Part shown: positions 2,516 to 7,199 of the stretch, piece by piece
Layout: each line of letters opens with the position of its first letter
How positions within the stretch are numbered: position 1 is the first letter of the stretch
Assembly (NCBI GenBank): GCA_902795255.1
Contig: CADBKS010000147.1
Span: 1-7,458 of the forward strand
Reading direction: 5' to 3'
From: an uncultured Chloroflexota bacterium
GTDB lineage: Bacteria; Chloroflexota; Anaerolineae; Anaerolineales; Anaerolineaceae
Length of the DNA stretch: 7,458 nucleotides
The notes under the pieces: model-generated
What the model was told of the DNA's origin: nothing
Database searches by the model: none
Seen by the model: the letters and a program-made list of their open reading frames with translations, nothing else
Translations under genes and position numbers: made by a program

Positions 2516-2585
2516 AATGAGTCACGCGTACCGGGTACCACTGACTCACGGGTGAGTCAGTGGTACCCGGTACGCGTGACTCATT
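2516..2585. repeat. 70-bp head-to-head inverted repeat: two REP-like palindromes (copies A and B)
   Basis: The arms 2516-2549 and 2552-2585 are exact reverse complements over 34 bp with a GG spacer (2550-2551). Each arm contains a 31-bp unit that is itself an imperfect palindrome: TGAGTCA, 3 nt, GTACC, 1 nt, GGTAC, 3 nt, TGACTCA. Copy A is 2518-2548 (plus orientation) and copy B is 2553-2583 (minus). The 3-nt blocks (CGC and CAC in A) oppose each other without pairing, giving a bulged hairpin like classical REP elements; the A+B pair resembles a BIME. The element lies in the divergent region between the transporter promoter and the transposase promoter, and just touches the latter. Confidence 0.92.
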
Positions 2586-2593
2586 GGTATAAT
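2585..2593 (+). promoter_or_regulatory. Extended -10 promoter of the transposase gene
   Basis: TGGTATAAT is a consensus TATAAT (2588-2593) with the upstream TGn of an extended -10 element. No good -35 is present at 16-18 nt upstream, where the sequence is inside repeat B. The predicted start near 2600 leaves only about 12 nt of leader, with GGAG (2601-2604) 7 nt before the ATG. Any protein that binds repeat B, including the transposase itself, would cover the upstream part of this promoter. Confidence 0.55.
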
Positions 2594-2611
2594 TGAAACA
2601 GGAGTATCGCC

Positions 2612-3355
2612 ATGTCAAGAATGCCAAGAAGATTCAGCGAATACGGTTACATGCATCTCATGTTTAAAGGCGTGAACGGACAGATCATTTTTGAAGAGCG
2701 CAGCGACTATGTATACTTTCTGAATCTTCTGAAAAAGACCGGTATCGCACAAGACGTAAAAATCTGTGCATATTGTCTGATGGAAAATCACGTGCATCTG
2801 CTTGTTTATGATAAAGATCAGCGAACTCCGGAGTTCATGAGACAGCTTTGCCGGACCTACTCGCTCCATTTCAATCAAAAATATCAGCGGAAAGGCACCC
2901 TTTATCAAAATCGATATACCGGAAAACCAATTGAGAGCGAAAACTATCTGCTGAAGGTTTTTCATTACATTCTAAACAATCCGCAAAAAGCAGGGATTTG
3001 TCCGGCTGCTGAATATCCATGGAGCAGTTATGCAAAATACGGATACCCGAATTCATTTGTGGACACATTTGTATTGAAAGAACTGATCGGCAGCCGGGAA
3101 GCGTATGATAATTTTATCGCTTCGGATTACACGGATGCAGAGGATCCAACCGATTTAGGAGCAAACACAAAGGATGATGAATGGGCAAAAGGGATCATTC
3201 ATGATCATCTCCACATCAGCAGCGGAACGATCCTGCAGACCTATAATACTGAAGCCAGGAATGAAGCACTGAAACTTCTGAAAGAGAAGGGGCTGACTAT
3301 TCGGCAGATCGAACGTCTGACAGGCATTAACCGGAATATTATACAGCGCGTGTGA
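2612..3355 (+). CDS. Y1 (HUH) transposase, REP-associated tyrosine transposase-like (RAYT)
   Basis: 247 residues. The N-terminal Y1_Tnp domain (about residues 8-145) has the HUH metal-binding motif ENHVHLLVY with H60 and H62. Downstream are the RAYT-type blocks GTLYQNRY (95-102) and YLLKVFHYILNNPQKAG (112-128); Y119 is the likely nucleophile by spacing from HUH (inference; Y112 is the alternative), followed by YPWSSY (135-140). The C-terminus (about 214-247) ends in a helix-turn-helix-like segment, LTIRQIERLTGINRNIIQRV. HUH transposases of this class cut and join single-stranded DNA at hairpins. The gene is bracketed by three hairpin repeats that suit such a substrate. The frame looks intact, with GGAG 7 nt before the ATG. 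The gene is visibly more AT-rich than pgi or the LacI-type gene, suggesting separate ancestry. No second transposase gene (TnpB/IscB) is present. Confidence 0.9.
   Translation: MSRMPRRFSEYGYMHLMFKGVNGQIIFEERSDYVYFLNLLKKTGIAQDVKICAYCLMENHVHLLVYDKDQRTPEFMRQLCRTYSLHFNQKYQRKGTLYQNRYTGKPIESENYLLKVFHYILNNPQKAGICPAAEYPWSSYAKYGYPNSFVDTFVLKELIGSREAYDNFIASDYTDAEDPTDLGANTKDDEWAKGIIHDHLHISSGTILQTYNTEARNEALKLLKEKGLTIRQIERLTGINRNIIQRV
3317..3345 (+). promoter_or_regulatory. Possible weak promoter for the LacI-type gene, inside the 3' end of the transposase gene
   Basis: CTGACA (3317-3322) lies 17 nt before TATACA (3340-3345). It is the best pair I can find upstream of the regulator gene. If used, transcription would start near 3352 and the leader would contain the whole repeat C hairpin. 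The alternative is read-through from the transposase promoter. The match is modest and could be chance. Confidence 0.25.
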
Positions 3356-3362
3356 GCAAAAG

Positions 3363-3393
3363 TGAGTCAAGCGTACCAGGTACCGCTGACTCA
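3363..3393 (+). repeat. REP-like palindrome, copy C, downstream of the transposase
   Basis: Same 31-bp layout as copies A and B: TGAGTCA, AGC, GTACC, A, GGTAC, CGC, TGACTCA. It matches copy A at 28 of 31 positions in the same orientation and is inverted relative to copy B, so B and C flank the transposase as inverted copies. The three differences from A all fall in the unpaired 3-nt blocks or the central base; both stems are identical. It begins 8 nt after the transposase stop codon and ends 8 nt before the regulator's Shine-Dalgarno (3402-3405). Confidence 0.9.
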
Positions 3394-3413
3394 TCCGGAG
3401 GGAGGAGCATCAT

Positions 3414-4508
3414 ATGACAATGCGGATGGCGGATATCGCAAAACTGGCCGGGGTGGCGGAAAGCACGGTCTCCCGGGCTTTTTCGCATCCGGAAAAGCTC
3501 CGGAAAGAGACGCTGGAACGGATCATGAGCATCGTCCGGATGTATGACTATCATCCGAACGCGATGGCCCGGGCCTTCGCCCGCCAGCATTTCGGGCTGG
3601 TCAGTTTTCTCCTTTACAACAAAAGCCGCCCTTTCTGGGGTTCCAATTTTTACGGACCGGCACTGGACGGTTTTACGGAACGAGCCAAGGTCCACGGTTA
3701 CCACGTCGTACTGGGCGCCACTGCCATACAGAATGACTTTTTTGAGGAAAGCTCCATCAATGACAGCATTGACGGGGCCATTCTCGCCTCACGCGACCCG
3801 GATCCGATCCTCAGGGTATTTCAGAAGCGCGGGATCCCGATCGTGCTGTTTCAGAATGAAACGGCGCTGGATAACGTCGGGATGGTCACCAACAGCGACT
3901 ATAACGGCATTATGAAGATCATGGATCATCTGATCGAAGAAAGAGGCTATGAGGACATCGCCTTTTTCTCCAACCGCCTTTCCCACGTTTCCAATATGCA
4001 GCGTTACTTTGCCTATATCGACGCTCTCGAACAGCACGGGCTGAAACCCTATACCAACGATGAACTGCCGGAATACCCGCTTTATAACAAATACGAACCG
4101 AATCCCGTGATCCTTGCGCGTTACGGAAGAAGTGAGATTCCTAGGTTCGGTTCTCCGTTCATCGTATCTGCCGGCAACACAAGATTCGTGGAAAACGCGA
4201 TGCTGAAGCTGATCCCGCTCAGAAAAATGCCGCGGGCCATCGTCTGTGCGGACGATAACATCGCGGCCGGGGTCTGCAGTGCCCTGAAACAGAAGGGATA
4301 CCGGATCCCGCAGGACGTTGCCGTGACCGGTTATGACGATCTGGAAATGGCATCCCTGCTGACCCCGCCGCTGACGACCGTCCGTCTGGATGGATACCGG
4401 ATGGGGGCTGAAAGCATGGAACTGCTGAGCCGGTACATCAGCGACCCGAATACCCCGTCAAAGCGCATCTGTCTGGAGGATGAGCTGATCGTCCGGGAAA
4501 GCAGCTGA
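3414..4508 (+). CDS. LacI-family transcriptional regulator
   Basis: 364 residues, slightly above the usual 330-350. The DNA-binding helix-turn-helix is MADIAKLAGVAESTVSRAFS (residues 5-24), then a hinge region around YHPNAMARAFARQ. The periplasmic-binding-protein-like effector domain follows: FYGPALDGF near the start, DGAILASRD, GIPIVLFQNE, a domain-2 block RAIVCADDNIAAG, and the C-terminal VAVTGYDDLEMASLLTPPLTTVRLD, which is diagnostic for LacI/GalR repressors. The start ATG at 3414 has a strong GGAGGGAGGAG (3397-3407) upstream with about 8-nt spacing; Met3 or Met5 are possible alternatives. The effector is probably a sugar, and the predicted target is the 22-bp palindrome at 2476-2497 in front of the transporter operon (inference). 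No second copy of that operator was found in front of this gene, so self-regulation is not evident. Confidence 0.95.
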   Translation: MTMRMADIAKLAGVAESTVSRAFSHPEKLRKETLERIMSIVRMYDYHPNAMARAFARQHFGLVSFLLYNKSRPFWGSNFYGPALDGFTERAKVHGYHVVLGATAIQNDFFEESSINDSIDGAILASRDPDPILRVFQKRGIPIVLFQNETALDNVGMVTNSDYNGIMKIMDHLIEERGYEDIAFFSNRLSHVSNMQRYFAYIDALEQHGLKPYTNDELPEYPLYNKYEPNPVILARYGRSEIPRFGSPFIVSAGNTRFVENAMLKLIPLRKMPRAIVCADDNIAAGVCSALKQKGYRIPQDVAVTGYDDLEMASLLTPPLTTVRLDGYRMGAESMELLSRYISDPNTPSKRICLEDELIVRESS

Positions 4509-6350: not shown

Positions 6351-6656
6351 TCAGGCGATATTCAGGATGTCGGAAAAACCGGTCACCTCAAATACTTCAC
6401 GAACGATCTCATTGCAGTTGATGACCCGGACGCTTTCTTTCCCGTTCCGGAGCATGGTTTTGTTCACAGAAAGCAGGACCCGCAGGCCGGCCGAGGAGAT
6501 ATACTCAAGCTTCGCACAGTCAAAAGTCAGGCTGTTGACCTCAGCGGTCACTGCGTTTTTCATTTCCGCTTCGAGCTGCGGAGCGGTTCCGGTATCCAGG
6601 CGGCCTTCCAGCGCGACTGTCAGGTCATTTCCGTTCATGTTTTTTACAATGTTCAT
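6351..6656 (-). CDS. STAS-domain anti-sigma-factor antagonist (SpoIIAA/RsbV type)
   Basis: 101 residues, the normal size for a single STAS domain. The first strand and LxGRLDTxTAPxLE block (residues 14-29) is typical. The phosphorylation region DCAKLEYISSAGLRVLL (46-62) corresponds to the D-x-S-S-G-L region of SpoIIAA, with Ser55 the probable phospho-acceptor. In partner switching, the unphosphorylated form binds an anti-sigma kinase and frees a sigma factor; other STAS proteins control phosphatases or enzymes instead. The start ATG at 6656 has GGAGG (6661-6665) just upstream. An in-frame TTG at 6668 was rejected because its first codons are the Shine-Dalgarno itself. It follows the upstream gene by 12 nt, so the two are co-transcribed and probably translationally coupled. 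Confidence 0.92.
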   Translation of the reverse strand: MNIVKNMNGNDLTVALEGRLDTGTAPQLEAEMKNAVTAEVNSLTFDCAKLEYISSAGLRVLLSVNKTMLRNGKESVRVINCNEIVREVFEVTGFSDILNIA

Positions 6657-6668
6657 CTTTCCTCCCAA

Positions 6669-7199
6669 TTATCCCGCAAAATTTTTACTGACCTTAAGGT
6701 CGACTTCCCGTCCGCGGATCGAGATCGCCACATTATCCGCAAGGCGCTTCAGAACCGAGCATTCATAGCCGTCCCATTCCGAATCGGCGATCTCATGCCC
6801 GGCAAGATCCGCATAAACCTCAACCGGGACCGGGTCGCCTTCGGGGTCTCTGGCCATGGCTGTCTCAAAGGAGTCTCGTAAGAAACCGAGAAAACTGCGT
6901 GAAGCCGCATTGACCCCTTCCGTTGAGGCGTTGATCAGCTGTTCCCGCTGTTTCCGGTCCAGATCAGCTTTTGCGGAAAGATGCAGCTCATAACGCGGGC
7001 CTTCATTGCAGATCCAGAAAGATGCGGTCGTTTCACCTGCAACAATGCTGAGCATGCTGAGCATCTCTTCCGTGAAAAGCTGGAGATGCAACGCATTTTT
7101 CTCACTCAGCTCATTATATACAGCGACCTTGCGTGATTCTGCAACAGCCTTTTCAAATCCTTCCCCTTTATTGGAGAGTACAATAACATCAGATTTCAT
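6669..7199 (-). CDS. Probable anti-sigma/GHKL-like partner of the STAS protein (degenerate)
   Basis: 176 residues. I recognise this as the type of protein found directly upstream of STAS genes in Clostridia and relatives, often named ATP-binding or anti-sigma regulatory protein. An N-terminal section is followed by HLQLFTEEMLSML (38-50), in the position where GHKL kinases such as SpoIIAB/RsbW have the N-box (E-x-x-x-N). A central region about the FW strand (61-62) and a C-terminal strand-rich end (VAISIRGREVDLKVSKNF) follow. The Asn of the N-box is missing (Ser48/Met49 at that place) and there is no clear DxGxG box, so ATP binding and kinase activity are doubtful. It is cytoplasmic, with no signal or membrane segment. 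GGGAGG (7208-7213) lies 8 nt before the ATG at 7199. It may bind the STAS protein without phosphorylating it. Family assignment is from pattern memory, not a search. Confidence 0.65.
   Translation of the reverse strand: MKSDVIVLSNKGEGFEKAVAESRKVAVYNELSEKNALHLQLFTEEMLSMLSIVAGETTASFWICNEGPRYELHLSAKADLDRKQREQLINASTEGVNAASRSFLGFLRDSFETAMARDPEGDPVPVEVYADLAGHEIADSEWDGYECSVLKRLADNVAISIRGREVDLKVSKNFAG

Follow-up and report, generated by a model that had tools for sequence, protein, structure and literature searches.

The window analysed here, a stretch of 7,458 nt of DNA, contains an intact transposase gene that is bracketed by three copies of a short hairpin, two of them standing close together upstream of the gene and one downstream. 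Together they form a unit at 2516-3393, whose neighbors, as assigned by Pfam, are the peptide-binding-protein gene of a peptide transporter and a LacI-type regulator gene (3414-4508). The features of the locus are the following:

2516..3393, no strand: whole unit of doublet, gene and single hairpin; missing at the syntenic site in two relatives
2518..2548, plus strand: hairpin A; TGAGTCA arm, 17-nt middle with GTACC-G-GGTAC, TGACTCA arm; exact match, 0 expected
2553..2583, minus strand: hairpin B; inverted copy of A, 4 nt away, forming with A a REPIN-like doublet
2585..2593, plus strand: extended -10-like TGGTATAAT directly after hairpin B; possibly the transposase promoter
2612..3355, plus strand: TIRYT/RAYT-type Y1 HUH transposase gene; 247 aa, intact (Pfam, alignment, structure model)
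2789..2797, plus strand: HUH motif codons (H60-V61-H62 within NHVH); N59, H60 and H62 invariant in 23 aligned sequences
2966..2968, plus strand: codon of the putative catalytic tyrosine Y119, in YILNNP; Y119, N123 and P124 invariant in 23 aligned sequences
3224..3349, plus strand: C-terminal region, likely a helix-turn-helix (about residues 205-246); helices in the model, weak HTH matches
3363..3393, plus strand: hairpin C; the lone copy on the downstream side, oriented as A; exact match

Elsewhere in the window, on the minus strand at 6351-7199, a STAS-domain gene (6351-6668) adjoins a 176-aa ORF (6669-7199) that has no Pfam match and is perhaps its anti-sigma-type partner.

Three hairpins around the gene

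The pattern TGAGTCANNNGTACCNGGTACNNNTGACTCA matched exactly at hairpins A (2518-2548), B (2553-2583) and C (3363-3393). It had no other match in the 7,458-nt window at up to three mismatches, and none in 200 dinucleotide shuffles. A preliminary description of this DNA had placed three 31-nt hairpin copies around a Y1/HUH gene, and its coordinates and anatomy proved exact. It had also described A and B as an inverted pair and C as a single copy, which was confirmed both by the pattern matches and by a perfect 34-nt inverted repeat containing A and B (2516-2549/2552-2585, with 2 nt between the arms). Since the middle of C agrees with that of A at 14 of 17 bases and with that of B at 10 of 17, C is oriented as A is, so that B and C flank the gene in opposite orientations.

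As lone single-stranded DNA, one strand of the single unit A/B folds into a 7-bp and a 4-bp helix with a 3x3 internal loop between them and a 3-nt loop at the tip, a structure barely stabler than those of shuffles (z of -1.3 and -1.5 for the two strands). The fold of hairpin C is clearer against shuffles (z of -3.7 and -3.9). The A+B doublet as single-stranded DNA forms one 33-bp hairpin (z of -14.5), so that a feature of REPINs, the inverted doublet able to form one long hairpin, is present here with perfect 34-nt arms. The GGGGWSAS motif was absent from hairpins A, B and C, and no GT[AG]G was found directly 5' of any of them when both strands were read.

The transposase

The ORF at 2612-3355 matches the Pfam family Y1_Tnp (PF01797) at E 6.4e-11, a match that stops at residue 122, and it carries NHVH at residue 59 and YILNNP at residue 119. 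Beyond this Y1 core, the C-terminus is helical in an AlphaFold2 model of the protein (mean pLDDT 87.3). The helix-turn-helix matches of the transposase were all weak and below the Pfam cut-offs (HTH_19, 0.0094; HTH_5, 0.086; HTH_23, 0.092); at E values of up to 1, HTH_23 was matched by 15 of the 23 aligned members (best 7.6e-5) and HTH_28 by six (best 0.0015). The solved structure most similar to the model was that of a RAYT in complex with a REP hairpin (4er8; E 3.3e-7, TM 0.72 by target length), and the next structural matches were transposases of the IS200/IS605 type. A phmmer search of the transposase against PDB chains returned no match.

At E 0.001 or better, 1019 database proteins matched the transposase. 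The four best, from contigs of 803-2763 bp, share 95, 89, 73 and 74% identity with it, and the 22 plasmid records that matched are all below 60% identity. Three of the 120 protein matches listed are named entries, from Anaerolineaceae and Flexilinea; the bacterium of the window is related to rumen Flexilinea.

Both the RAYT fold and the REP-like bulged hairpins arranged in a doublet would suit a canonical GTAG-type REP/RAYT system acquired from Proteobacteria, but this origin is extremely improbable: the GT[AG]G foot is missing from A, B and C on either strand, the transposase scores 57.7 bits with the NCBIfam model NF047646 (REP_Tyr_transpos), under its cut-off of 80, and its best relatives come from rumen Chloroflexota and Bacillota. 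We rejected the hairpins as canonical GTAG REPs because of the missing foot.

The unit is missing from the same site in two relatives

Two of the five relatives searched, G001 and G055, have both neighbor genes adjacent to each other, at 71-81% DNA identity to the window, and both of them lack the unit; in the other three (G003, G052 and G056) the two genes are not together. The gap between the BLAST matches is 181 bp in G001 and 205 bp in G055, versus about 900-980 in the window. On the left, the match ends at window position 2502 (G001) or 2444 (G055), and weak similarity in the alignment continues almost to hairpin A, as far as about 2515. Beyond the unit, the match picks up again at 3401 (G001) or 3423 (G055), which is 8 and 30 bp past hairpin C. 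The empty sites hold 180 nt (G001) and 128 nt (G055) of other spacer, which does not fit a clean insertion; within 3.9 kb at these sites we found neither TGAGTCA nor TGACTCA and no hairpin remnant. As far as alignments can tell, these comparisons suggest that 2516-3393 is an insertion; alternatively, its absence from G001 and G055 may be due to loss in those relatives.

A perfect palindrome, ATGCAAGCGCTTGCAT, stands at 2479-2494 between the binding-protein gene and the unit and is largely conserved in G001. It looks like an operator of the LacI-type regulator encoded at 3414-4508.

Sister hairpins are dispersed in the genomes of close relatives

The preliminary description had proposed to look for the hairpin pattern in related genomes, a search that, run with the exact pattern, came back nearly empty: there was no copy in 10 genomes, a single degenerate copy (in G052) among 147 nearest-family genomes, and none in viral_contigs. 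The core GTACCNGGTAC occurred at 27 places in 15 genomes versus 44 for the reversed control; 14 of the 27 were read, none of which lay between TGAGTCA arms and one of which lay between the related arms TAAGACA/TGACTTA. The near-empty exact search indicates that the specific core of the window is not common to the relatives searched, whereas the arms and the length of about 31 nt are.

It had further been expected that copies would be scattered between genes, would occur as inverted pairs and would accompany orthologues of the transposase, and on these points the TGAGTCA-armed sister hairpins read in relatives supported the expectation, being often, though not always, paired. Among the 147 nearest-family genomes, TGAGTCAN{12,20}TGACTCA had 38 copies in G001, 79 in G052, 4 in G003, 18 in G055 and 20 in G056; the other 142 genomes had 0-2 each, with any at all in 19, and the reversed control gave 0-1 in every genome. 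These five are the only genomes with a full-length best match to the transposase below E 1e-29, a limit that, like the 1e-30 used below for close relatives, was chosen after the lists were seen. The next-best genome match is partial, at 5.7e-26, and 47 of the 147 genomes have some match at E 0.001.

We read 39 stretches, which were among the first TGAGTCA-hairpin places listed. Although ORFs of at least 100 aa cover 79% of these stretches, 51 of the 52 TGAGTCA-armed copies lie outside them. Ten close pairs were present, eight of which have a 3-4 nt spacer and inverted middles, as A and B do. A doublet of G052 used as a query found 40 further copies in that genome. When the G052 doublet at L159 was compared with G055 and G056, homology ended near the doublet on one side, and no clean empty site was seen, so this comparison carries no weight here.

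In G003, G052, G055 and G056, the examined flanks of all detected RAYTs were free of TGAGTCA hairpins, so that, within the nearest family, gene and TGAGTCA hairpin were seen side by side only in G001 and the window. The TGAGTCA copies of these four genomes are either orphans or have a gene that the assembly failed to include.

The background of TGAGTCA hairpins in the remaining genomes is another kind of hairpin, judging by its place beside ABC binding-protein genes at the loci examined. From the 19 genomes concerned, which have 1-2 pattern matches each, we chose 10 loci by a shared TGAGTCAGT arm; reading of translations placed an ABC binding-protein gene next to the hairpin in all 10 and a permease gene opposite in nine. 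At about position 1500 of L128, L135, L138-L142 and L145-L147, a hairpin of the form TGAGTCAGTRY...RYACTGACTCA stands beside the ABC binding-protein gene. This TGAGTCAGTRY hairpin has probably been inherited vertically as a stem-loop of the mRNA, with no connection to the transposase.

Relatives of the gene have hairpins with arms of their own

To the best 80 of 551 confirmed relatives from a scan of genome contigs, we added 17 from the five nearest-family genomes. Once L001, L002 and L004 had been dropped as duplicates of L111, L112 and L117, there were 95 distinct loci, namely, the window and 94 relatives. Judging by their titles, the 80 loci are mostly from Bacillota (rumen, gut), with some from Chloroflexota and a few others (Coriobacteriia, Treponema).

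The flanks of many relatives contain self-complementary arms around a middle that is most often 15-17 nt long and frequently contains GGGGACGGTTCT; examples of such arms are TGAGTCA/TGACTCA, GTGTCA/TGACAC, GCACCAA/TTGGTGC and AAGATGAAA/TTTCATCTT. With 500 bp scanned on each side, a hairpin with 6-bp arms that is repeated in the locus at 75% identity was found at 47 of 98 loci (the window and the three duplicates included), of which 42 have it on either side of the gene. Of the 94 relatives, 82 carry a GGGAC(GG/AG/GT) core no farther than 500 bp from the gene, and its arms are at least 5 bp long in 68 and at least 6 bp in 53. Repeated hairpins or a core with arms of at least 5 bp thus accompany the gene in 76 of the 94 relatives, mostly Bacillota and Chloroflexota, while 18 have neither within 500 bp.

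The arms differ between loci, yet they stay self-complementary around the shared core. We measured this covariation on GGGAC(GG/AG/GT) cores within 500 bp on each side, at 82 loci that do not include the window. With one element taken per locus, 34.9 of the 82 loci on average had arms of at least 6 bp of their own, compared with 4.7 of 82 when 3' flanks were swapped between loci (largest value 11 in 300 draws). Similarity of arms was moderately related to similarity of proteins (r 0.33, n 58, permutation p 0.0005, with five arms typed by hand). Within G001, two RAYTs that are 81% identical have TGAGTCA arms in common. Two others of that genome, 70% identical, share the middle CACCTGATACA and have undergone paired arm changes, with GGTACA/TGTACC in one and GGGACA/TGTCCC in the other. 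Other repeats accompany same-genome RAYTs at L115-L127, for example, GGGCGAACCGTCCCC arrays at L115 and AGCACTTGGCGCCGGTTG repeats at L121.

Armed cores occur on both sides of the gene at 37 loci. Some inverted pair is present at 33 of them, and at 30 the upstream core is on the same strand as the gene and the downstream core on the opposite one. This inversion of end elements around the gene, along with a unit that is bounded by hairpins and missing at two syntenic sites, is what an ordinary if unusual insertion sequence would offer: A/B and C would be its ends, 2516-3393 would move whole, the dispersed pairs would be MITE-like remnants, and the gene would not be domesticated. We consider this rather unlikely. 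Copies within nine genomes have diverged to 28-81% identity, unlike the near-identical copies of active insertion sequences; most copies in a single genome have differing end hairpins; and the motif is the class 2 Y---NP, not the Y---Q given for IS200 TnpA in the cited part of PMC6006769.

A second repeat family in the family of a Butyrivibrio

We also counted GGGGACGGTTCT across the family to which G006, a Butyrivibrio, belongs, in 250 genomes sampled evenly from a larger set. At least five copies were present in 12 of the 45 genomes that match a RAYT at E 1e-10 versus 6 of the 205 that do not (Fisher p 2.5e-6), and, for close RAYT matches (E 1e-30), in 11 of 22 versus 7 of 228 (Fisher p 3.5e-9); both tests treat genomes as independent of relatedness. 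Exceptions in both directions make the link between GGGGACGGTTCT and RAYTs a strong but not a strict one. Of the 45 genomes matched at E 1e-10, 33 have fewer than five copies. The six repeat-rich genomes without a match comprise G189, with a decayed RAYT, G164, with a C-terminal remnant, and four with none. The decayed gene (L210) and the remnant (L211) belong to genomes that keep 29 and 55 GGGGACGGTTCT copies, respectively, and in these two the repeats have perhaps outlived their enzyme.

An upstream arm resembling a -35 box

With L023 left out as well as the duplicates L001, L002 and L004, 50 loci have an upstream core with arms, and at 15 of them the upstream 3' arm contains TTGAC. TATAAT with at most one mismatch follows 16-18 nt on at 9 of these 15 loci (shuffles: mean 0.6, maximum 3); with at most two mismatches, it does so at 12 (shuffles: mean 3.8, maximum 11). 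Nine downstream control hairpins had TTGAC, only four of which were long enough to be tested, and none of the four had such a hexamer. In some relatives, therefore, the arm looks by its sequence like a portable -35 box of the transposase gene. The loci at which the upstream 3' arm gives TTGAC with a -10-like hexamer 16-18 nt on are L005, L007, L017, L018, L025, L027, L044, L049 and L054. In the window, the promoter scan found neither an arm serving as -35 nor a -35/-10 pair that uses TGGTATAAT.

The hairpins could instead be selected regulatory dyads, that is, operators or RNA stem-loops of their neighbors, with the transposase as a passenger. An upstream arm like a -35 box at 9 of the 15 loci with TTGAC arms (of 50) points that way, as does the TGAGTCA-armed hairpin that adjoins a transporter binding-protein gene in other genomes of the family. 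Against it, the neighbor genes are kept without hairpins in G001 and G055, the separate LacI-operator-like palindrome ATGCAAGCGCTTGCAT stands outside the unit, and sister hairpins are scattered through genomes in tens of copies. We therefore hold a regulatory origin to be very unlikely. The hairpins were also considered as terminators, which we rejected, since no terminator-like site was found at them.

Class and proposed mechanism

We conclude, with a probability of roughly 0.7, that the element is a TIRtron, in which a RAYT-type transposase of the TIRYT branch, belonging by its motifs to TnpAY1 subclass 2.1, is accompanied by a cognate REP-like hairpin. According to the passages of Quentin et al. 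(2018; PMC6006769) drawn on here, subclass 2.1 is the second largest subclass, equals group 1 of Bertels and probably matches the TIRYTs described by Di Nocera et al.; its C-terminal extension resembles Bac_DnaA_C, HTH_23 or HTH_28, and an automatic and manual search found no REP-like sequences alongside its genes. The transposase of the window shows the NHVH (or NH[YF]H) plus Y---NP of this subclass and, at 247 aa, its length of about 240 aa with a C-terminal extension. As in TIRYTs, the gene is bracketed by inverted non-GTAG repeats, here B and C; the filing under subclass 2.1 rests on motifs, length and these flanks. The preliminary description was thus right that a RAYT-type enzyme stands with its own hairpins outside Proteobacteria, but it had taken the system for one of an undescribed kind, whereas it fits TIRYT/TIRtron, which is already known.

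From the anatomy, the HUH and tyrosine core, the covariation of arms, the dispersal of the sister family and the missing unit at two syntenic sites, a mechanism can be proposed for this TIRtron. The enzyme would recognize its hairpin on single-stranded DNA, probably the lagging-strand template, and the conserved tyrosine would cut beside the hairpin before the strand is re-joined, both by analogy with E. coli TnpAREP as presented in the part of PMC8266576 cited. It would read the outer arms of the hairpin as its own address. A+B doublets may spread in trans as REPINs do (after the portion of PMC3116915 used here). More speculatively, the gene and its bracketing hairpins might occasionally move too and in this way have landed between the peptide-transporter and LacI-type regulator genes, and a hairpin beside the gene may allow the C-terminal domain to control the promoter of the enzyme itself. 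A bolder proposal, which we offer tentatively and consider possible rather than probable, is that TIRYTs are still-mobile RAYTs with swappable arm addresses, which repress themselves through an arm-promoter, move as a gene together with their hairpins and seed REPIN-like doublets.

These relatives would give a general hairpin anatomy to subclass 2.1, which appears without REP-like substrates in the survey sections of PMC6006769. They also provide dozens of natural enzyme/hairpin pairs with different arms and a shared core, so that substrate specificity and the coevolution of RAYT and hairpin could be tested by arm swapping. The empty syntenic sites suggest joint movement of gene and hairpins, unlike what those sections of PMC6006769 say of REPtrons.

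Comparison with known systems

Unlike a canonical REP/RAYT system (REPtron), the unit has no GTAG foot, and its transposase falls below the REP_Tyr_transpos cut-off. Compared with E. coli TnpAREP/REP, the structure 4er8 is the best structural match, but a GTAG-type motif before the hairpin is missing, the C-terminus is longer and the hairpin is different. E. coli REPs are, in the cited part of PMC8266576, imperfect palindromes with a bulge that are processed as single-stranded DNA, and the hairpins of the window, known from sequence, share that shape.

The likeness to REPINs, as far as the cited part of Bertels and Rainey (2011; PMC3116915) describes them, lies in RAYT-linked inverted palindrome doublets in intergenic DNA and in compensatory changes. 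The differences are the lack of a GTAG-type end, the other phyla and the spacing, which is mostly 3-4 nt within pairs here, versus commonest start-to-start distances of 71 and 110 bp in REPINs. IS200 TnpA, for its part, is short (median 152 aa) with a Y---Q motif (Table 1 of PMC6006769), unlike the 247-aa transposase with its YILNNP, and same-genome copies in the genomes of nine relatives are 28-81% identical rather than near-identical.

NHVH, Y---NP, about 240 aa and a C-terminal extension are shared with subclass 2.1 as characterized in the relevant part of PMC6006769, as are, judging by the relatives, a low copy number and diverged copies; the HTH similarity of that subclass has a weak counterpart in the transposase of the window. 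Unlike in that survey, hairpins flank the gene of the window, and hairpins or armed cores accompany 76 of the 94 relatives. The closest description is that of TIRYT/TIRtron elements by Di Nocera et al. (2013; PMC3733652), in whose cited sections a gene related to RAYTs stands between inverted repeats that have no relation to GTAG REPs. Self-complementarity is seen in some of these TIRs, and some families are moderately abundant, as dimers or clusters. The GGGGWSAS motif is shared by some TIRs and so does not define them; unlike these motif-bearing TIRs, the window has GTACC-N-GGTAC as its middle. The TIRtron description in those sections mentions neither arms that are exchanged around a common core nor an empty syntenic site nor an arm acting as -35. 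Searched in the open-licence literature, three core strings led, by title, to no work on bacterial repeats. As far as that literature was searched, what is new to the known TIRYT kind is the exchangeable-arm hairpins of TIRYT-type enzymes from Chloroflexota and Bacillota, together with the empty sites and the -35 arm.
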